A DNA stretch of 64,000 nucleotides from contig NZ_VTWS01000009.1 of the NCBI RefSeq assembly GCF_008727875.1, positions 62,001-126,000 on the forward strand, in the 5' to 3' direction. The stretch's first letter is position 1. Every line of letters starts with the position of its first letter. Shown here in pieces: positions 21,099-29,563 of this stretch. The notes beneath the pieces were generated by a model. That model worked only from the letters and a program-made list of their open reading frames with translations. It searched no databases and had not been told where the DNA came from. The DNA is from Larkinella humicola (lineage in GTDB: Bacteria > Bacteroidota > Bacteroidia > Cytophagales > Spirosomataceae). The translations under genes were made by a program, and so were the position numbers.

Positions 21099-23609
21099 TC
21101 ACCATTTTACGCCAACCGTCAGGAAGAACGCCCGCCCGTCGGACGGCAAAATTCCCGGACCGGGGTAGCCCGTTGCCCGGCGGGTGTAATAAAATTCATT
21201 CGTCAGGTTGTTGACGCTGCCTTCCAGTTTGAGCCACCGGTAAGTCCACGACAGCGAAAAATCCATGATGTGATAGGCCGGTATGCGTCCGACAACCCCC
21301 GAAAAACCGCCATCGATGGCGTTCGTCGCGTCGGAAAACTGGTCGGTCAGGTACGTAAACTGGAACGATGCTTTCAGGTTGCGGTAGCTCCACCGCATGC
21401 CCGATTTGAGGTTGACGGCGGGAACAAACTCGACTTCATTGCCTTCTACCCCCGGAATCTGGCTGTTGACATACCGCGAACGAATCAGGGCCAGATTGCC
21501 GAAAACCGACCAGCCCCAGCGATCGGACTGGTTTTCTAACAGCCGCAACAGTTCCACTTCGCCATACGACTCCAGCCCCACGATCAACGCCCGGCCGATG
21601 TTGGTCCGTTTGCGCAGAACACGGTCGTTTTCGTCGTAAAACTGCACTTCGCCAATGCGGTTTCCGTAGTTGAGCGCAAACAGACTCAGGTCATAATTCA
21701 GCACTTCGTTTTTCTCACCCCGCACGCCCACATCCGCCGAAAAACCGCGTTCATCCTGCAAATTGGGGTCGATCACCGCCGACGGGTTCGCGATTCGCAT
21801 GTCACTGAACGTAATCGATCGGTAATTCTGGGAGATGTTCCCGTAGGCTTCAAGCTGAGCCGACGGCTTGTAACTCAGGCCAATACCGGCAATCAGAAAA
21901 CCGCGCGGATTGACCCGTTTCTCCTGCGTTTTAGTAATATCGATGATGTTGCCCGCCAGATCGCGGACGACGTTGCCGTAGAAACCGTCGGCTGTGGTGC
22001 GGATGTGTTCGTAGCGCAGACCGGGCGTTATGGATACTTTCGAGTTCAGGAAAAGCACATTTTCGGCAAAAAACGAAACGTTTCGGTTCGGGAAACGGTA
22101 GTCGGACGACGTGAGTTGATCGGGTTCGACGAACGTAAAATCTGCGTTTTTGCCCGTTGGGCCAACGCCTTGTCGGCTGTGGTTGAAACCGTGGTAATAC
22201 CGGGTTCCGACCAGAATAACGCCGTCTTTTTGGCCCAGTTTATACCGGTTCAGAAACCGCCCTTCAAAACCCCAGTTTCGGAAATCACCGGCAATCAGAT
22301 CCCGCTCCACGCTTTCATTGTCGACCGTTGCCACGCGGTTGGGCCGAAAACCCAGCGAATACCGGGACGCCACCACGCCAAACGCCAGCAGGTTGATGTC
22401 CGACCGGCGGTTTACTTTCCAGTCGTAATGCACATTGAACAGGTTCCAGTCCACTTTAAACCAGTTTCGTTCCCGGTTCGATTGCCGGGGATCGTCCCGG
22501 AACATGGCGTCGCTCAACCCGCCCGGTTGCTGGGCCAGGTAGTCCATGTGCGTCACTTCCAGGCCGATTTTGGCGTCGTCGGTCAACTGGTAGTGCAGAT
22601 CGGCATAGAGGGTTTTGCTGTCGAAATGCGAATTGGGCCGCCAGCCGTCCGCCCGTTTATACTGAAAAAAGGCGTAATAACTCAGCTTTTTAGCCGTGCC
22701 GCTCACGCTGTTGAACGAGTTGAAAAAACCGAACGACCCCACGGTTTGCCGTGACGTCACTTCAATGGTTCGGTCGGTAACGGGCTGGCGCATTTCGAAA
22801 TTGAGCAACCCGCCAAACTGCGTTCCGTATTGCAGCGAAGCGGCTCCGCGCACAATCTTGATGCGTTTCAGTGCCTCCGTCGGCGGGGTGTAATAACTTT
22901 CGGGATAGCCCAGGGCGTCGGCGCTGATGTCGTAGCCGTTTTGCCGGACGTTGAAGTTCGACGTCCGGTTGGGGTCGAGGCCCCGGCCGCCGATGCTCAG
23001 TTGCAAACCGCCCCCGTCGTTTTCCCAGATGTTCAGACCGGCCACCCGCGCATACACCTGCCGGGCGTTGTTGGTGGCCAGGTTGGCGACCAGGTTGTCG
23101 GGCAAAATCACTTCCGATTTTTTGGCGGCAAAAATGGCCGTGCCTTCCACTTCGCGCAGCCGGGTCATGCCGAAACTGCCCTGCTGGGCCGTAACGGTCA
23201 CTTCCCGGAGCGTTTTTTCAGAACTTTCCAGCGAAATGTCAAGCGTCGTATCCGAGCGAACCGTCAGTTCGGTTTTAAACGGTTTGTGATTCAGGGAGAA
23301 AAACTGGAGTTGGTAGGTGCCGCTTTTTAAATTGGGAATGGTGAACTGCCCCAAACTGTCGGTCATAAAAATAGTCCGGGAGCCTTTCAGGTAGACGCTG
23401 GCCCCATCGACCAGCGCATTGCTCGTTTTTTCATGAACCAGCCCCCGCAGCGTGTGTTGGGCCAGACCGGCATTTGCAATTAGAAAGAATAGCAAAAATA
23501 CCCCTAAAGGGGACTTTCTGAATCTGGATGTTGCCGCGTCCAAGTCCCCTTTAGGACCGGGGTCGCGTACGACTTTAGGGGCAATCGATCTATAAACCTT
23601 TAATTTCAT
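21099..23609 (-). CDS. TonB-dependent outer membrane receptor (FecA-like) with carboxypeptidase-regulatory N-domain
   Basis: An 836-residue outer membrane receptor. After the signal core (VFLLFFLIANAGLAQ, residues 37-51) comes a CarbopepD_reg-like beta-sandwich to about residue 130, the plug (IGGRGLDPNRTSNFNVRQNG and VRGAASLQYGTQFGG), and a 22-strand barrel ending in aromatic FLTVGVKW. The plug resembles ferric-siderophore/FecA receptors. The start at 23609 overlaps the gamma-carboxylase gene by 20 bases, so it is the last gene of that operon. Oddity: a palindromic DNA element (23501-23581) is translated between the start codon and the signal core, giving an unusually long n-region of about 36 residues. 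Iron is the likely cargo, from the neighbours. Confidence 0.9.
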   Translation of the reverse strand: MKLKVYRSIAPKVVRDPGPKGDLDAATSRFRKSPLGVFLLFFLIANAGLAQHTLRGLVHEKTSNALVDGASVYLKGSRTIFMTDSLGQFTIPNLKSGTYQLQFFSLNHKPFKTELTVRSDTTLDISLESSEKTLREVTVTAQQGSFGMTRLREVEGTAIFAAKKSEVILPDNLVANLATNNARQVYARVAGLNIWENDGGGLQLSIGGRGLDPNRTSNFNVRQNGYDISADALGYPESYYTPPTEALKRIKIVRGAASLQYGTQFGGLLNFEMRQPVTDRTIEVTSRQTVGSFGFFNSFNSVSGTAKKLSYYAFFQYKRADGWRPNSHFDSKTLYADLHYQLTDDAKIGLEVTHMDYLAQQPGGLSDAMFRDDPRQSNRERNWFKVDWNLFNVHYDWKVNRRSDINLLAFGVVASRYSLGFRPNRVATVDNESVERDLIAGDFRNWGFEGRFLNRYKLGQKDGVILVGTRYYHGFNHSRQGVGPTGKNADFTFVEPDQLTSSDYRFPNRNVSFFAENVLFLNSKVSITPGLRYEHIRTTADGFYGNVVRDLAGNIIDITKTQEKRVNPRGFLIAGIGLSYKPSAQLEAYGNISQNYRSITFSDMRIANPSAVIDPNLQDERGFSADVGVRGEKNEVLNYDLSLFALNYGNRIGEVQFYDENDRVLRKRTNIGRALIVGLESYGEVELLRLLENQSDRWGWSVFGNLALIRSRYVNSQIPGVEGNEVEFVPAVNLKSGMRWSYRNLKASFQFTYLTDQFSDATNAIDGGFSGVVGRIPAYHIMDFSLSWTYRWLKLEGSVNNLTNEFYYTRRATGYPGPGILPSDGRAFFLTVGVKW
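23501..23581. repeat. Family H palindromic element inside the TonB receptor reading frame
   Basis: Inverted arms CCCCTAAAGGGGACTT and AAGTCCCCTTTAGG enclose a loop containing GCCGCGTCCAAG. It is translated as APKVVRDPGPKGDLDAA followed by FRKSPLG. Nearly the same DNA and peptide, in the same frame, occur in the unrelated gene at 27573-28937. Confidence 0.8.
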
Positions 23610-24939
23610 CGCCAAAGGGTAAAATCCACTTTTTGGGCCGGAACGAGTCGGTTTCCTGCGCCAGGTTGACCGTCGGGTCAATGTACGGTTTGCCCAGTCG
23701 ACCATTCAGACTGACGTAGGTATCGGCAAAAACTTTCGGGTTTTGAAAACCCTTCCGGGCGTACTGATCCCGCAGATACTGCGCAAACTGAACCAGCATA
23801 TCCGGCTGCGTCGCCATCATTTTCTCCTGCAAAGGCGTCAGGTATTCGTGGTTGTTGACGACGGCCTGCCGCCCCGATTCGTCCACGACTTTGAATTGAA
23901 CATGCCCCATTTTTTCCATCAGCATCACCCGCCACGAAAACCGGTAGCCCTCTTCCGACCAGAATAACTCGTTGGGATAGAGCGTATACCGAAAGGGAAA
24001 AAGGAGTTGGATGATGAAAAACAGAGCCAGCACGGATAACAGTCTCTTGGACTGTAGCCCGTTATAAATCAATATCTTATGACGCTCTAAAAGGTTATCT
24101 GGCAGGCGCAGCAGACGGCATAAAACCGCAATGATGCGTTGGTGAAAACCGGCGGAGAAAAAGATCAGAGCCGCCACGATCATGATGTACGGAAACATGC
24201 CGATGGGAAACAGAATGACGGTCAGCACGTGAAAAACCACCACGGCGACGTAGGCAAACGGGCGCGTGATGCGGTTGAGCAGCAAAAACGGAATGCTCAG
24301 GTCGTAGAGCGCGCCAAGCCAACTGAACGCATACGCCGTTTCTCGGTAGTTGAACAGAAAACCGATGATGGGTAAATCGTTGCGACCGGGCAACCAGATC
24401 CGGAGCGGAAGCGCTTCCAGCAGCCAGTCGGAGTTCAGTTTGGCCAGCCCAGCGTAGAGGTAAACGATCCCCATCAGCAGCCGCAAACTGTCGATCGTCC
24501 AGCGGGGAATCTGGTCATAAAACCGACGGGGATCTCGGTAAGTATCCACCGAAAAATAGACGTTAGCGGGCAGGAAGATCAGCAGAAACGCTACCAGGCT
24601 CACAAAATAATAGTGATTCAGGTAGGTGCTTTTGTCCATTAGTTCGATGTACGTAAAGCTCAGAAAAAGCAGCACGGAAGCCACCCGGTAGAACCAGCCA
24701 AGGGCCACCAGCAGCGCGCTGAGACCGCAGACGGCAAACAGCAGATAGGTGTATTCGCCGAGCGGTTCGATGAACTCAAAACCGTAATACGGAAAGAAAA
24801 AAGCCGGTTTGATGTAAAGCTCTTCGATCCAGCCTTTTGCCCAGAAACGAACGACACTGCCCAGGAGCATTACACCAAAGGCGATTCGGAAAACGGCCAA
24901 AGGAGCCGCTGAGGTGTATGTCCGAAAATACCGGCCCAT
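23590..24939 (-). CDS. Vitamin K-dependent gamma-carboxylase homolog (HTTM domain protein)
   Basis: A 449-residue inner-membrane protein. Several hydrophobic segments cover residues 1-280 and 300-320, followed by a soluble part. Segments line up with human GGCX as I remember it: NHYYFVSLVAF and ANVYFSVD with GGCX NHSYLYGLLAF and ANHYWSVD; YAGLAKLNSDW with IAGVKKLDADW (the lysine matches the proposed base Lys218); LFPIGMFPYIM with LFSIGMFSYVM; and, in the soluble part, PDMLVQFAQYL and the VSLNGR/IDPTVN region with ADMLKQYATCL and VSINDR/FDPRVD. The match therefore runs through the whole catalytic unit, not only the HTTM helices. Reduced menaquinone could serve as cofactor. ATGA overlap couples it to the imelysin gene upstream. 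Carboxylase activity is inferred. Confidence 0.88.
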   Translation of the reverse strand: MGRYFRTYTSAAPLAVFRIAFGVMLLGSVVRFWAKGWIEELYIKPAFFFPYYGFEFIEPLGEYTYLLFAVCGLSALLVALGWFYRVASVLLFLSFTYIELMDKSTYLNHYYFVSLVAFLLIFLPANVYFSVDTYRDPRRFYDQIPRWTIDSLRLLMGIVYLYAGLAKLNSDWLLEALPLRIWLPGRNDLPIIGFLFNYRETAYAFSWLGALYDLSIPFLLLNRITRPFAYVAVVVFHVLTVILFPIGMFPYIMIVAALIFFSAGFHQRIIAVLCRLLRLPDNLLERHKILIYNGLQSKRLLSVLALFFIIQLLFPFRYTLYPNELFWSEEGYRFSWRVMLMEKMGHVQFKVVDESGRQAVVNNHEYLTPLQEKMMATQPDMLVQFAQYLRDQYARKGFQNPKVFADTYVSLNGRLGKPYIDPTVNLAQETDSFRPKKWILPFGDEIKGL

Positions 24940-26099
24940 CAGTCGCCGTCCGTATCCACGTAGGTGATGGTGATGCTCATGGCCGACGTCATGTCCACTT
25001 TCAGCATTCGTACGGCTTTCTGCATTTCGGTGTAAACCGCCACCACCGCAGCATTATTCGTCTTAATTTCGTCGTGCAGATTCGGTTTCAGCGCATTCAG
25101 TTTCGCGTTGGTCGATTCAAACTGCGCGTTGATCACCTCCACCAGCGACTTCCCGGTCTGGCTGTCTTTGGCGCCCAGAGCGTTGAGGTAGCTTTTAAAA
25201 CCGGGTCCCTCCTGCCCCGTTTTCACGTCTTTCCCGTTGAAAAAATCAATGGCGGCCTGGTGGGCGGTTTTGGCCAGAACCAACGACAGGTCTTTTTTGT
25301 AAAACGCTTCCACTTTTTCGGGAGCCGGAGTGCCGCTGGCCATCACGCCCGTCGGAATTCCGAATTTCCCCGAACGGATATACCGCTCATAATGAAGTAC
25401 ATACCCATTGACCAGTTTCGAGGTTGAGCACCCCGCGTCGATGCCGGTACAGTTCACAAACTTGTCCCGGTAGCCACCGGTTGTCCACTCGGTCAGAACG
25501 GCGGTAAAAACTGTGTTCATCTGGGTGGTGATTCGCTTCAGGTAGGCAATCCGTTTGGCCGCATCCGCAGCCGTCGTATACCGCAGCAGGATGGCATTGT
25601 CGGTGGCCGCCAGGCCATTGATCAGGTAATCCAAAGCCGGAAAACCCTGTTTGGGGTACGCGGCTGGCAAGTCCATCACCGCCGAACCCGAGACGATATT
25701 CTCCTCAATCCCGGTCACGTTAGCGGGATAGATGTTAAAAAAATACCGGAGTGTCTGCGATTCTGCCGGGCCGACATCGAACAGCTCCACTTTTTGCCAT
25801 TCGGTATAAGCATCGACCCAGGCCTGCCGGAATTCCGTCAGCGTGGTTGGGTCGGGTTTGGCCGCAAAGGCTTCCGACTTCGCCCGCATCAGGTCAAATT
25901 TGGTTTTAAAATTGGCGTAGCCCGGCAGAATGATGTTGTCCGCCAGGTGCGTCAGCATCGCCTTGCGGTCGGTGCCAACAGGGTTTGTAGGATTCGGATC
26001 GGGGTCCGGATCGGGCGTATCCTTGCTGGTCGAACAAGCCCAGACCAACCCCAAAAAAGCAAACAAAAAACCGACGGTTTTCCAACTGAAATGTGCCAT
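24939..26099 (-). CDS. Imelysin-like lipoprotein (COG3489 type)
   Basis: A 386-residue lipoprotein: signal FLFAFLGLVWAC with the lipobox cysteine near residue 20, then a D/P-rich linker (DPDPDPNPTNP) and an all-helical imelysin/ICMP-like domain. The family motif GxHxxE appears in altered form as GFPALDYLING, with histidine replaced by proline and glutamate by aspartate, so the metal or protease site of classic imelysins is probably lost. Members of this group are tied to iron uptake. The stop overlaps the gamma-carboxylase start (ATGA). I chose the ATG at 26099; the longer frame would run through an intergenic palindrome. Confidence 0.85.
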   Translation of the reverse strand: MAHFSWKTVGFLFAFLGLVWACSTSKDTPDPDPDPNPTNPVGTDRKAMLTHLADNIILPGYANFKTKFDLMRAKSEAFAAKPDPTTLTEFRQAWVDAYTEWQKVELFDVGPAESQTLRYFFNIYPANVTGIEENIVSGSAVMDLPAAYPKQGFPALDYLINGLAATDNAILLRYTTAADAAKRIAYLKRITTQMNTVFTAVLTEWTTGGYRDKFVNCTGIDAGCSTSKLVNGYVLHYERYIRSGKFGIPTGVMASGTPAPEKVEAFYKKDLSLVLAKTAHQAAIDFFNGKDVKTGQEGPGFKSYLNALGAKDSQTGKSLVEVINAQFESTNAKLNALKPNLHDEIKTNNAAVVAVYTEMQKAVRMLKVDMTSAMSITITYVDTDGD

Positions 26100-26205: not shown

Positions 26206-27387
26206 TTAATTCGTGATCTTGAACTTCGTCCGGATGGCCGCAGCGGCTGCATCGATTTTGGTGTTGGTCAGCCCCCAGAAACCGTTCGGTGCCAGGATCA
26301 GTCCCGCCAGAATGGTGTCCGAGAAAGCCGCATCAGCCCCGTTTACTTTGCAAAACCGCAGCGAGTAAATGAATCCCAGTCCTTCGCCGATGGCGTGGGC
26401 ACGGGCTGCGTCGTTGGTTGCGTTCGTTTTCCATTTCCCCAGATAGCCTAAAGCCGCAGCAGCCAGGGCTTTTTCCAGGGCCGGGCGTAGAATAGCCACC
26501 TGCGCTTTCAGGGTCGTCGGGTCGTTGTTGACAATAGCCGCCCGGCCTTTCAGCAAGGACGTGTGGATTTTGGGGAAGTCTTCTTTATTGTATTCCCAGA
26601 GGTACGAACCGATGAAACTTTCGCCGGACGACGTAGCCGTTGCTTTGCTGCCATAAACCGGATTGGCCGTCAGCAAGCCGAAAATTTGATCCCAGTTGTG
26701 CTCCAGTTCGGTGTATTTTTTACCGGTTACCACTTTGGAATTGTCCAGTGCCAGGTTCTTGTCGCTCAGCAACACGTTGCTGATGTAATCGACCTGCATG
26801 CCGCCAATCATCGATTTCTGGATGATCTGGCCCCACTCAATGCCTCTGGCGTCCACCAGATAGGAACTGGTTCCCGTTACGAGCTTGCCCGCTTTGCCTT
26901 CCGACGCGATGGCCGTTACGGATTTGCTGGCGGTGGCAATCGGTCCAAAAGCGGCTTCCAGTGTTTTGCGTTCTTTTTCGGCATCAGCCGCTGGCAATGA
27001 CGAGGCAAAAATCGACCGCAGGTTAACGCCGGACGTATTCAAAGCCGCATCGGTAAAGGGGTTGCCGGTGTTGGAAAACATATTTTTCAATACGGTCGAA
27101 TCCAGCGTGGCGCCGGTTCCTACCGCCGTGCCGTTGTAGGTATTGATGGCGCGAAACATCAGGAGTTGGGTGCTACCCGGTGTCAGATCGACGGTTTTGG
27201 CACCGCTGACATCCGCAAAGAAGTTGGCGTAGGCCGTAGTGTCCGTTAATTTGGAATAGTCGATAGCCGAACGCAGGTTCTCAGGCGGTGTGATGCCATT
27301 GTCATCGTCGTCTTTGCTACAGGCGATCAGACTGGCGGTTACCAACACAATGGGAATGTATCGGGCAAGTACATTTAATTTGAACAT
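26206..27387 (-). CDS. DUF4856 domain lipoprotein
   Basis: A 393-residue lipoprotein with a lipobox at IVLVTASLIAC (cysteine at residue 23) followed by acidic SKDDDDN. The body matches DUF4856, a family I know from its recurrent place beside imelysin-like lipoproteins and TonB receptors; it begins with an IDYSKLTDTTAYANFF-like stretch. Its biochemical role is unknown. It is the first gene of the four-gene operon, preceded by a 185-base gap with an AT-rich candidate Fur-like dyad. Low-complexity acidic residues after the cysteine may bind metal, but that is speculation. Confidence 0.85.
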   Translation of the reverse strand: MFKLNVLARYIPIVLVTASLIACSKDDDDNGITPPENLRSAIDYSKLTDTTAYANFFADVSGAKTVDLTPGSTQLLMFRAINTYNGTAVGTGATLDSTVLKNMFSNTGNPFTDAALNTSGVNLRSIFASSLPAADAEKERKTLEAAFGPIATASKSVTAIASEGKAGKLVTGTSSYLVDARGIEWGQIIQKSMIGGMQVDYISNVLLSDKNLALDNSKVVTGKKYTELEHNWDQIFGLLTANPVYGSKATATSSGESFIGSYLWEYNKEDFPKIHTSLLKGRAAIVNNDPTTLKAQVAILRPALEKALAAAALGYLGKWKTNATNDAARAHAIGEGLGFIYSLRFCKVNGADAAFSDTILAGLILAPNGFWGLTNTKIDAAAAAIRTKFKITN

Positions 27388-27452: not shown

Positions 27453-27514
27453 TTAGTAAGAATGTTTTTAAATAAGATTTTAACCTGCTGAAAGTAAGAG
27501 CCTTATACTAGACG

Positions 27515-27572: not shown

Positions 27573-28937
27573 TCACCGGACAGACTGAAAACCCAGCCGC
27601 AGGCTGACGCCCCCCGAACCAAGCAGAAGGTTTTCCCGCGTAAACGGCCCGATCGGATATTTCAGATACGGTTCAGCGGATAAGCGAAATTGGGTGCCGA
27701 TCCGGCGTTCCACGCCGATGGACAGATTGAGGATTCGACCCCAGTAAATTTTCTGGAAAGCCGGTGCGGCCTGGTTTATCGTTTCCTGCGCCGTCACGAA
27801 CTGTGTGGTCGTTTGTTCCTGCCCGTTGGTTCCCATCACCACCACCGTCACCTCTTTTTGCTGCTGGTAGGTGTAAGCGTACTGTTCGTTCAGAAAGGCG
27901 ACGGACGACAGGCCCGCTTCGGCGTAGAAGCCCAAATTAGCCGATTTTTTGGGTCGAAACCGTATGTTCAGCGGCAGATCGACCGCCGTGAGCCGAATGC
28001 TGGTCGAAATCAACTGGGGAATCGTCGAAACAACGAACACTTCCGGCCCGGCGGTTCCGAATTTTTGCTGCGCCATCGACAACCCGGTCGACAGGCTAAA
28101 CCGGCGGCTGATCGGAATTTCGGAAAAAAGTCCGCCCCCCACGGCTGGCGATGCCGAACTTCCCGCGGCATATACCGACTGCGGGGCCAGACTAACGCCC
28201 CAAATGGGCTTTTGCCCCATTTTAGACCGGTCTATTTTTGCCACCACCGGTTGGTCAGTCCATAGACTCAAGGGAAGTCCCAAAGGCCGGAGCGGGCGCT
28301 GGGTGATCGGTATGGATCGTGGCGTGATGAAGTCATACGAGCCGGTTTGGCTGATTGATTCGTCGGGGCGAATGCGAACGGCAATTGGTTCTGGCCTTGC
28401 GTCTAAAGTCGTGCGCGGCACCGGCCTTGCCCCTAAAGTCGTGCGCGACCCCGGCCCTAAAGGGGACTTTCTGAATCCAGATTTTGCCGCGTCCAAGTCC
28501 CCTTTAGGACCGGGGTCAAGAACAACTTTAGGGGCAAAACCGGGGTCGCGCACGACTCCAGGAGTGGAAAGCGAAAGCAGCGGTTTTCCATCAGGCTCAA
28601 CGGGTTCCTTTTTATAGATTAACCCCGCTCCTTCTACCCGGTGCTTCTCCACCAACGACGGAACGGTTTTCTTTCCCGAAAAACCGGTTTTGGGTTGATT
28701 TTTTGCCAGGGATTCCGAATCCTGCCGACCGACATACAGCCAAACCGGCACGCCCAGAACGCCGAGCAACAGACAGGCCGCCAGCGCATACCGGAACCAG
28801 ACCAGCGGTTGCCGCTGCTGCCGTTTGCGCCGGAGCCGCTGAAATTCCTCCCACGAACCGGGCTCGTAAGCCGGTTCATACCGTCCCATCGTCTTTCGGA
28901 TCTGATCGGTCAGCCGTTTATGGATAGAATCTTTCAT
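27573..28937 (-). CDS. Anti-sigma-like membrane protein with C-terminal outer-membrane beta-barrel-type domain
   Basis: A 454-residue protein. Residues 1-43 are a charged cytosolic-type segment (YEPAYEPGSWEEFQRLRRKRQ). Residues 46-68 form one membrane helix (FRYALAACLLLGVLGVPVWLYV). A proline/arginine-rich linker to about residue 245 is followed by a beta-rich C-terminal domain with alternating aromatic strands ending in LRLGFQSVR, as in PorT-like outer membrane beta-barrels. It overlaps the upstream ECF sigma gene by 20 bases, so an anti-sigma role is likely. The linker contains the family H repeat translated as KVVLDPGPKGDLDAAKSGF and FRKSPLG. An inner-membrane helix and a barrel in one chain is topologically odd. 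Confidence 0.75.
   Translation of the reverse strand: MKDSIHKRLTDQIRKTMGRYEPAYEPGSWEEFQRLRRKRQQRQPLVWFRYALAACLLLGVLGVPVWLYVGRQDSESLAKNQPKTGFSGKKTVPSLVEKHRVEGAGLIYKKEPVEPDGKPLLSLSTPGVVRDPGFAPKVVLDPGPKGDLDAAKSGFRKSPLGPGSRTTLGARPVPRTTLDARPEPIAVRIRPDESISQTGSYDFITPRSIPITQRPLRPLGLPLSLWTDQPVVAKIDRSKMGQKPIWGVSLAPQSVYAAGSSASPAVGGGLFSEIPISRRFSLSTGLSMAQQKFGTAGPEVFVVSTIPQLISTSIRLTAVDLPLNIRFRPKKSANLGFYAEAGLSSVAFLNEQYAYTYQQQKEVTVVVMGTNGQEQTTTQFVTAQETINQAAPAFQKIYWGRILNLSIGVERRIGTQFRLSAEPYLKYPIGPFTRENLLLGSGGVSLRLGFQSVR
28392..28560. repeat. Family H palindromic element, expanded copy, inside the anti-sigma/barrel reading frame
   Basis: The core CCCTAAAGGGGACTT ... AAGTCCCCTTTAGG at about 28455-28508 is flanked by degenerate tandem units of about 30 bases containing CTAAAGTCGTGCGCG and their inverted forms (ACTTTAGGGGC, GTCGCGCACGACT). 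The reading frame stays open through the whole block. Confidence 0.8.
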
Positions 28938-29493
28938 TGTGATTCGGGAAATAATTTTTCACCAACCGGGCAAGTTTTTCTTTCGCCCGAACCAGGTAAA
29001 CCCGCGACGAGCTGACCGACAGATTGAGTTGCCGGGCGATTTCGTCGTGCGAATAGCCTTCGATTTCGTATAAGTTAAACACCATGCGGTAGTGGTCGGG
29101 AAGGTGTTGGAGCAGGTTCAGAATGTCCTCCGCCGTGAGTTGGCTAATGACCGAATCTTCGAGGGCAACGGCCTGGCTGTCGGCCTGTTCCGGATCGAGG
29201 GCTTGGGCGTGCCTGGTCAGTTTCCGGTAATGATCGAGGGCGGTATTGACCACAATCCGGCGCAGCCAGCCTTTGAACGTTTCGTCAAACGCATACCGGT
29301 CGATCCGGTCGAAGACTTTCATAAAACTATCGTTGACCACGCTGCCCGCTTCCTGCCGGGCCGGGTGGTATCGCAACGCAATGGCCATTGTAAACCCGTA
29401 AAAATGTTTGTAAAACATTTCCTGGTGCTGCGGGCTGCCGTTCCGGCATCCTTCGATGAGTTGTCGTTCAAAAGGAGTACAATCTGGTGCCAT
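28918..29493 (-). CDS. ECF-type RNA polymerase sigma factor
   Basis: A 191-residue sigma-70 family ECF protein. Region 2 is seen as AGSVVNDSFMKVFDRIDRY with FKGWLRRIVVNTALDHYRK, and region 4 as LPDHYRMVFNLYEIEGYSHDE with LNLSVSSSRVYLVRAKEKL near the C-terminus. I chose the ATG at 29493; a GTG at 29541 would add 16 residues without family similarity. It is coupled to the downstream membrane/barrel gene by a 20-base overlap, the usual sigma/anti-sigma order. Two small secreted-protein genes precede it on the same strand with short gaps. Confidence 0.93.
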   Translation of the reverse strand: MAPDCTPFERQLIEGCRNGSPQHQEMFYKHFYGFTMAIALRYHPARQEAGSVVNDSFMKVFDRIDRYAFDETFKGWLRRIVVNTALDHYRKLTRHAQALDPEQADSQAVALEDSVISQLTAEDILNLLQHLPDHYRMVFNLYEIEGYSHDEIARQLNLSVSSSRVYLVRAKEKLARLVKNYFPNHNERFYP

Positions 29494-29563
29494 ATCACCG
29501 GCTGCGGGCGATAACAAAGAACGGTGAGCCCGACGGCCCACCGTTCCGGATATGAGTGGTATT

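Follow-up and report, generated by a model that had tools for sequence, protein, structure and literature searches.

What does a vitamin K-dependent carboxylase do in a bacterium, and on which protein would it act? To our knowledge, the bacterial members of this family have no settled function. We analysed one of them in a window of 64,000 nt of Larkinella humicola (GCF_008727875.1, contig NZ_VTWS01000009.1, positions 62,001-126,000), where a sequence-only reading had proposed a full-length gamma-carboxylase homologue in an imelysin/TonB operon, with Gla residues on one of the exported partners. The features, in window coordinates, are:

21099..23609, minus strand: TonB-dependent receptor, probably starting at 23609 although its longest ORF opens at 23705; overlaps the 3' end of the carboxylase gene
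23590..24939, minus strand: VKGC-family membrane carboxylase homologue (HTTM and VKGC lumenal domain), from Pfam, phmmer and structure superposition
24939..26099, minus strand: imelysin lipoprotein (M75; putatively IPPA-type) with lipobox Cys22; likely start 26099 (the longest ORF starts at 26252)
24942..24956, minus strand: C-terminal tail of the imelysin, DTDGD-COOH; DGD invariant in homologues, unstructured in the AF2 model
26206..27387, minus strand: DUF4856 lipoprotein, at the head of the operon, from Pfam and conserved locus order
27455..27473, minus strand: Fur-box-like site, degenerate (5 mismatches of 19), upstream of the DUF4856 gene: ATTTAAAAACATTCTTACT

The carboxylase gene encodes 449 aa and matches both Pfam PF05090 (HTTM; 262 bits, E 7e-78) and PF22777 (VKGC_lumenal_dom; 195 bits, E 1e-57), each with a cut-off of 27.7 bits; a profile search of control genomes found HTTM in 3/14 and PF22777 in 0/14. 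Up to E 1, phmmer matches among PDB sequences were human GGCX constructs only (8 distinct sequences), the best (E 1.3e-40) pairing residues 9-442 with human GGCX 59-505. The similarity proposed for the soluble region was recovered, with phmmer aligning PDMLVQFAQYL/ADMLKQYATCL, VSLNGR/VSINDR and IDPTVN/FDPRVD. A structural comparison with GGCX, suggested as a check at the outset, agreed: the AF2 model superposes on GGCX cryo-EM chains (structures such as 9l6q, 9bvk and 9wfc) with Z 33.1 and rmsd 2.9 over 435 aligned residues at 28% identity, and the next unrelated row reached only Z 4.6. The human enzyme shares the HTTM and VKGC lumenal domain but is 758 aa long, and much of its propeptide-binding region is missing from the window protein. 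‘Full-length’ had to be dropped: alignments stop at human 505-510, where the bacterial protein ends, nothing in it corresponds to human 506-758, and F49 and Y388 stand where GGCX has the C99-C450 disulphide, with Cys at neither column in 64 homologues.

The active site is retained. The base lysine proposed in AGLAKLNSDW is K167, equivalent to human K218, and the histidine proposed in NHYYF is H109, equivalent to H160; N108 and W172 correspond to N159 and W223. In an alignment to GGCX, K167, H109 and N108 are identical in 64/64 operon homologues, as is each residue of the vitamin K ring pocket shared with human GGCX (F236, F244, F249 and W172 for F286, F294, F299 and W223). GGCX G259 is also kept, and the Glu-pocket Y395 column holds Tyr in 52 and Phe in 12 of the 64. 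The clade carries its own substitutions near the vitamin K pocket and near the Glu pocket. Two are clade-wide, as read in all 64 operon loci and four further loci: M401, part of the same vitamin K pocket and located in the TMD-PBD linker, becomes Val, and N290, in the vitamin K tail tunnel, becomes Thr. Further differences from GGCX are K217 to Ala, N158 to Leu and H404 to Glu. By its domains, residues and fold, the protein belongs to the VKGC family, in a distinct bacterial clade, and it would probably be active as an enzyme. Homology and conserved residues thus stood, and the claimed extent did not. Menaquinone biosynthesis is represented in the genome (MenD TIGR00173, 425 bits against a cut-off of 244); VKOR (PF07884) had 0 matches there, which leaves epoxide recycling unexplained.

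The gene sits in an operon ordered DUF4856, imelysin, carboxylase, TonB receptor. The proposed coupling to both neighbours is borne out by overlaps at both junctions: the imelysin stop overlaps the carboxylase start (TGATG), and the likely receptor ATG, at 23609 and chosen by judgement, lies inside the 3' end of the carboxylase gene. Both operon members named initially are confirmed, and DUF4856 is added as a fourth, in first position. All four genes occur in this order in 62/81 loci (64/81 if DUF4856 is not required), and the imelysin-carboxylase-receptor order is found in 75/80 named loci. The best NCBIfam resemblances of the receptor are to siderophore and ferric dicitrate receptors, below cut-offs. 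For DUF4856, no solved structural relative scored better than E 0.37, and a kinship with imelysin by profile was rejected, as hhalign aligned the signal peptides only.

Regulation points to iron. A Fur box with ≤4 mismatches precedes the first operon gene in 114/136 loci, against a background of 0.9% in shuffles, 1/160 upstream of the carboxylase and 0/141 upstream of the receptor. Ahead of its DUF4856 gene, Larkinella soli (L168) carries a site with 3 mismatches, ATTTAAAAATATTCTCAAT. The window's own copy, with 5/19 mismatches, is unconvincing alone; its upstream region holds no 19-base palindrome with ≥8 pairs, and sigma-70 and terminator scans gave results close to chance. In Riemerella anatipestifer, four genes with neighbouring tags, RAYM_09779, 09784, 09789 and 09794, annotated as TonB receptor, ‘Vitamin K-dependent gamma-carboxylase’, imelysin lipoprotein and hypothetical protein, show raised expression when iron is restricted and when fur is mutated (PMC5609570). 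Their resemblance to the present set is one of annotation; they appear there as table rows, and the passages on them give no Fur box and do not discuss a role for the carboxylase (PMC5609570). RAYM_09794 could, at a guess, be the DUF4856 counterpart. In the open-licence literature searched, gamma-carboxylase and imelysin were found together in one paper, PMC5609570, and imelysin together with HTTM or with DUF4856 in none. At the family level, this gene set is iron-regulated and under Fur, and it is present in many Bacteroidota. Of the iron or calcium uptake suggested originally, iron is supported, through the Fur boxes and the Riemerella regulation; calcium found no support.

The imelysin matches PF09375 (E 1e-26) and superposes on PDB 3pf0 with Z 30.4, but also on ICMP 7xrx with Z 33.1, so a fold match by itself is not diagnostic of IPPA; its profile and tail suggest the IPPA type. 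The profile aligns through the last residue of 3pf0 (Psychrobacter), which ends TDGD, aligned to the window tail, with its last six residues disordered in the crystal. IPPA imelysins (3pf0; PA4372, VC1266; PMC3143127) share the fold and differ in having DHOR and DUF1513 as neighbours, whereas the window imelysin is a lipoprotein beside the carboxylase, DUF4856 and receptor. ‘DGD’ is absent from the main text of PMC3143127; we propose here that a C-terminal DGD is a feature of IPPA-type imelysins, and its invariance is itself a finding. The DGD end is identical in 49/49 aligned carboxylase-associated imelysins. None of their Glu residues is fully invariant: Glu238 and Glu264 each occur in 48/49, the exceptions being Gln (L163 at E238, L258 at E264). 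In L258 the very next residue is Glu, which leaves E264 perhaps truly invariant; its column is, however, also Glu in 10/21 tail-less imelysins and 3/5 alphaproteobacterial imelysins and is thus not specific to carboxylase-bearing genomes. With two Glu only nearly invariant and Asp-Gly-Asp completely invariant, the enzyme may make something other than Gla.

Across 395 genomes of the phylum, 72/72 with an imelysin ending -DGD carry a carboxylase of the operon clade, compared with 0/15 of those with only other imelysins. Conversely, all 72 genomes that carry an operon-clade carboxylase also encode the tailed imelysin, even where the two genes are unlinked (G116, two Roseivirga genomes and G296). 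Two of eight Larkinella relatives lack the carboxylase, and both also lack the imelysin; in Persicobacter, an imelysin-DHOR-tailed imelysin run is joined directly to the carboxylase. These are plain counts over genomes, and the co-occurrence partly reflects shared operon inheritance. Because the clade occurs only with the tailed imelysin in the genomes examined, that imelysin is the prime suspect as substrate. The suggestion that an exported partner carries Gla is thereby sharpened towards the tailed imelysin as candidate, DUF4856 apparently not being constant (no PF16148 match in G116).

We therefore favour, at a probability of about one in two, a reading in which this clade modifies the upstream IPPA-type imelysin as a metal ligand in Fur-controlled iron uptake. 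The carboxylase would be menaquinol-dependent and act at the periplasmic face of the inner membrane, either adding a carboxylate to an acidic residue of the imelysin lipoprotein or leaving the residue otherwise oxidised by the vitamin K base; the modified imelysin would then be tuned as a metal ligand, presumably for iron, working with DUF4856 and the TonB receptor. The enzyme would most probably act on, or dock at, the flexible, invariant Asp-Gly-Asp end, which offers a specific candidate peptide; E238 and E264 are the alternatives. Of the initial interpretation, the lumenal homology, catalytic residues and iron-linked operon are kept. One carboxylase clade thus gains a constant genomic partner, an iron-uptake setting and clade-specific substitutions near the active site. 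If the clade is active, vitamin K-dependent protein carboxylation would be a means of acquiring iron that is widespread among bacteria, with a bearing on the origin of the animal clotting enzyme.

The most serious competitor, which we regard as a substantial minority possibility, treats the DGD tail as common to IPPA proteins in general, a metal ligand or a docking site for a peroxidase or a receptor, unrelated to the carboxylase, and the pairing as inherited with the operon. The tail is indeed not unique to carboxylase-bearing genomes, an idea that we rejected: it is kept in 3pf0 and in five alphaproteobacterial imelysins, one record per genus, and need not depend on the carboxylase. The window carboxylase had no match on those five records, a comparison that covers these replicons and draws on 9 of 25 plasmid matches; a Pseudoalteromonas imelysin that was examined has no DGD tail. 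Against a generic role, the tail never occurs without the operon-clade carboxylase in the 395 genomes, unlinked genes included.

An unlikely alternative is that the protein is no longer a carboxylase and oxidises menaquinol, epoxidase-like, for another reaction, for example in the redox chemistry of iron, a role proposed for the Leptospira homologue. Leptospira has an iron-responsive imelysin-DHOR-imelysin operon, and its vitamin K-dependent carboxylase homologue is reportedly an epoxidase without carboxylase activity; the likeness, a bacterial VKGC protein in an organism with an imelysin operon, is by description. Loss of carboxylation would fit the M401 and N290 replacements and the absence of much of the propeptide clamp, but the Glu pocket is kept (N159 and H160 throughout, Y395 as Tyr or Phe).

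Classical Gla on the receptor or DUF4856, with the imelysin merely a neighbour, is rather improbable: both are exported, mostly co-encoded and have conserved Glu (receptor E481, E548, E566, E652 and E712, each 64/64; DUF4856 E341, 62/62), but conserved Glu in a beta-barrel would be expected on other grounds, the G116 carboxylase has no neighbour of either family and its genome no PF16148 (DUF4856) match, although divergent relatives can escape that model, Persicobacter has neither evident among the ORFs listed, and in Roseivirga the receptor adjoins the imelysin, away from the carboxylase.

Within the favoured reading, a narrower version is more doubtful still, namely a C-terminal aspartate carboxylase, with menaquinol-dependent beta-carboxylation of the imelysin DGD yielding a citrate-like tricarboxylate that would chelate ferric iron and either deliver it to the FecA-like receptor or accept it from there. 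If true, beta-carboxyaspartate with a free alpha-carboxylate on a flexible tail would be a vitamin K-dependent Asp modification outside animals.

Orphan carboxylase loci gave no substrate hint, no partner gene being common to all, and no DGD-like end was present among ORFs of ≥60 aa in the 19 stretches scanned. A ribF-type gene precedes the carboxylase in 10/16 orphan loci and a serS-type gene follows it in 7; one member of each was checked by Pfam, as were the DHOR, imelysin and SusD readings.

The VKGC-family gene, whose homologue in humans encodes the carboxylase GGCX, occupies one feature of the window:

23590-24939, minus strand: VKGC-family gene, 449-aa ORF

Its product belongs to the VKGC family. 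Pfam places HTTM at residues 9-263 (E 7e-78) and VKGC_lumenal_dom at 298-444 (E 1e-57), and residues 9-442 align to human GGCX 59-505 (129 identities over 425 aligned positions), bearing out an earlier sequence-only reading that the similarity reaches into the soluble region. With a limit of E 1, nothing but human GGCX constructs matched among PDB sequences; these comprise 8 distinct sequences, the best at E 1.3e-40. An AlphaFold2 model built from a 50-sequence VKGC alignment (A1; pLDDT 94.4, pTM 0.92) supplied the comparison with GGCX proposed in that reading: its best superposition on the cryo-EM chains aligned 435 residues (Z 33.1, rmsd 2.9), each of the 16 rows scoring Z >= 5 was GGCX, the row after these had Z 4.6, and Foldseek agreed. 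The description 'full-length' was wrong; unlike the human enzyme, the protein lacks the C99-C450 disulphide and anything after about human 505, and it is not a complete GGCX.

The base lysine and histidine are retained, as the same reading held. Using residue roles in GGCX from PMC12589487 and human numbering, N159, H160, K218, W223, G259, F286, F294 and F299 are identical in 64/64 operon homologues. K217, ascribed a role in binding and not catalysis in that paper, is Ala in all 64; the replacements N158L, N290T, M401V and H404E are likewise present in 64/64 each, and at Y395 the tyrosine is kept in 52 homologues and replaced by Phe in 12. Two of these substitutions, Thr240 and Val338 in the numbering of the window's protein (human N290 and M401), mark the operon clade (37/37 operon rows of A1 and 80/80 named loci), with Asn and Met in all 13 orphan rows, that is, VKGCs with no imelysin nearby. 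Glu342 accompanies the pair, yet also occurs in two orphan VKGCs, and in L273, an operon-clade gene outside these sets, residue 240 is Val. In a 60-row tree (quick search, unrooted, long branches), one branch with SH-aLRT 100 separates operon VKGCs, including one from Persicobacter (L258), from human GGCX, orphan VKGCs and plasmid-borne Paracoccus and Bernardetia copies.

The surrounding imelysin/TonB receptor operon, also noted in the sequence-only reading, recurs. Across 81 loci (the window plus 80 fetched stretches, covering 74 of 78 non-window VKGC matches and 6 same-genus matches), 64 have the order imelysin-VKGC-TonB receptor, 62 of these with DUF4856 in front. Three of the four initially omitted matches, fetched later, have the three genes adjacent; the fourth (G296) has its imelysin on another contig. 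A second, partly overlapping set of 80 named genome loci has the order in 75 and an imelysin in 76, Larkinella soli being the best match to the window (77%); of the remaining five, the two from Roseivirga contain DUF4856-VKGC alone, and the stretches of the other three, judging by their lengths, end where the absent gene would lie. DUF4856 is the loosest member, because 14 of the 62 proteins reach just 48-200 bits against a profile built from the same set and Pfam PF16148 misses several of these. DUF4856 genes also occur in other settings in genomes without PF22777 (L123-L126), near receptor-plug and SusD-family genes in L123 and a TonB receptor in L125. Some VKGC matches are interrupted: a single in-frame stop occurs in those of G053, G109 and G131, and a gene split into two frames in G243 (L104).

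The imelysin is a lipoprotein with a lipobox Cys in 64/64 operon loci, and its C terminus is Asp-Gly-Asp (DGD) followed by the stop in 63 and DGDS in one (L107); all 76 imelysins of the named loci end DGD, and three further imelysins in the operon loci have no such tail. Among 395 phylum genomes, PF22777 occurs in 82. By raw genome counts, uncorrected for relatedness, it accompanies the tailed imelysin in 72/72 genomes and occurs in 0/15 with only tail-less imelysins, all 72 tails and 15 non-tails having been read letter by letter. VKGCs of the 72 carry operon-clade residues, the exceptions being L273 and L272, which is cut by a contig end and shows just part of them; the 10 genomes with PF22777 and no tailed imelysin all have orphan-type Asn240/Met338. 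Both genes are missing from the same two of eight relatives in the window's genus, and in six families containing both states (f1, f2, f3, f5, f22, f23) they vary in step among the genomes listed, most of which are genomes with a match.

The tailed imelysin is the partner always present in the genomes examined, since unlinked cases still have one; the receptor family was looked for at the fetched loci. G116 has an operon-clade VKGC (L086) that adjoins neither an imelysin nor a DUF4856 or receptor gene of the operon families, and a profile search found no PF16148 match in the genome; its tailed imelysin lies elsewhere, within an imelysin-DHOR-imelysin operon (L163). Both Roseivirga genomes (8.6 and 8.2 Mb) have a distant tailed imelysin with a receptor beside it, as expected, and a Persicobacter psychrovividus plasmid (L258) carries imelysin-DHOR-DGD-tailed imelysin-VKGC as a single run of genes, which unites both contexts of tailed imelysins.

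Iron responsiveness is documented in Riemerella anatipestifer, where Table 4 of PMC5609570 gives the presumed counterparts of the four operon genes ratios of 2.1-3.1 when iron is restricted and, in a fur mutant supplied with iron, of 1.4-1.9. The table's source lists no Fur box for them in the text consulted; its Fur consensus derives from EMSA on four promoters, none from the VKGC operon. Taking the first Met of each ORF as the start, and among related loci, we found this consensus (<= 4 mismatches) upstream of 114/136 DUF4856 genes (84%) versus 0.9% in sequence given a simple shuffle of base pairs; at <= 3 mismatches it precedes 82/136 versus 0.15 expected. Within the same loci, it precedes VKGC in 1/160 cases and the receptor in 0/141 (<= 4 mismatches). 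Iron-responsive imelysin-DHOR-imelysin operons have been reported in Leptospira.

We put the probability that VKGC modifies the imelysin at about one half. By analogy with GGCX, the active side, lumenal there, would correspond to the periplasm, which would make a lipoprotein that is exported and anchored in the membrane a natural substrate. The presence of MenD indicates menaquinone synthesis; a profile search found no VKOR in the window's own genome. A change of substrate would fit both the substitutions near the substrate and cofactor and the partial loss of the propeptide clamp. We hypothesize that the imelysin tail is a substrate. D384-G385-D386 is invariant over 49 VKGC-associated imelysins, where E238 and E264 are each Glu in 48 (E264 perhaps 49 if one row is shifted); in the imelysin model, residues 381-386 have a mean pLDDT of 60. 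Carboxylation of the terminal Asp itself seems improbable. The animal enzyme reportedly carboxylates Asp in vitro, and a Leptospira homologue is said to have epoxidase-only activity. In the open-licence literature searched, gamma-carboxylase and imelysin appear together only in PMC5609570, as table rows.

A tail unrelated to VKGC is the main alternative, and can hold together with imelysin modification, confidence in the two overlapping. The tail looks like a general trait of IPPA-type imelysins, because alphaproteobacterial imelysins (Azospirillum, Phaeobacter, Sulfitobacter, Shinella and Sinorhizobium, one record each) also end DGD and the window VKGC had no match on these five plasmid records. 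DUF1513 follows the tailed imelysin in the three annotated records, and a di-haem oxidoreductase (two, plus Shinella by Pfam) or c-type cytochrome gene precedes it. An alignment of 27 tailed imelysins, drawn from both Bacteroidota and Alphaproteobacteria, has six invariant columns: P125, G152, W205, D384, G385 and D386. PDB 3pf0, an IPPA-family imelysin, ends TDGD; its last six residues are disordered in the crystal, and 'DGD' has no hits in the main text of its structure paper (PMC3143127). For proteobacterial tailed imelysins (L252, L253, L254, L256, L260, 3pf0), the other imelysin of the operon lacks DGD where read.

Orphan VKGCs (L053, L054, L056, L061, L063, L065, L116 and others) form a second clade, whose diagnostic positions hold Asn and Met as in the human enzyme; they have no evident partner and adjoin ribF- and serS-type genes in many f7 genomes. 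Plasmid p1 of the alphaproteobacterium Paracoccus albus carries a VKGC-family gene (L257, 6938-8329) next to a DUF393 gene, with no annotated imelysin near. Directly upstream of the window operon (27573-29541) lie an ECF sigma factor gene and then an OMP_b-brl_2 protein gene, with homologues (phmmer E 1e-5) in only 10 and 6 of 81 loci. A 14-bp inverted repeat, AAGTCCCCTTTAGG, with a 25-nt loop occurs twice in the window (23503-23555 and 28456-28508; arms, 4 found versus 0.02 expected), inside the receptor's N-terminal region and an outer-membrane-protein-like gene, suggesting that a palindromic element has inserted into genes.
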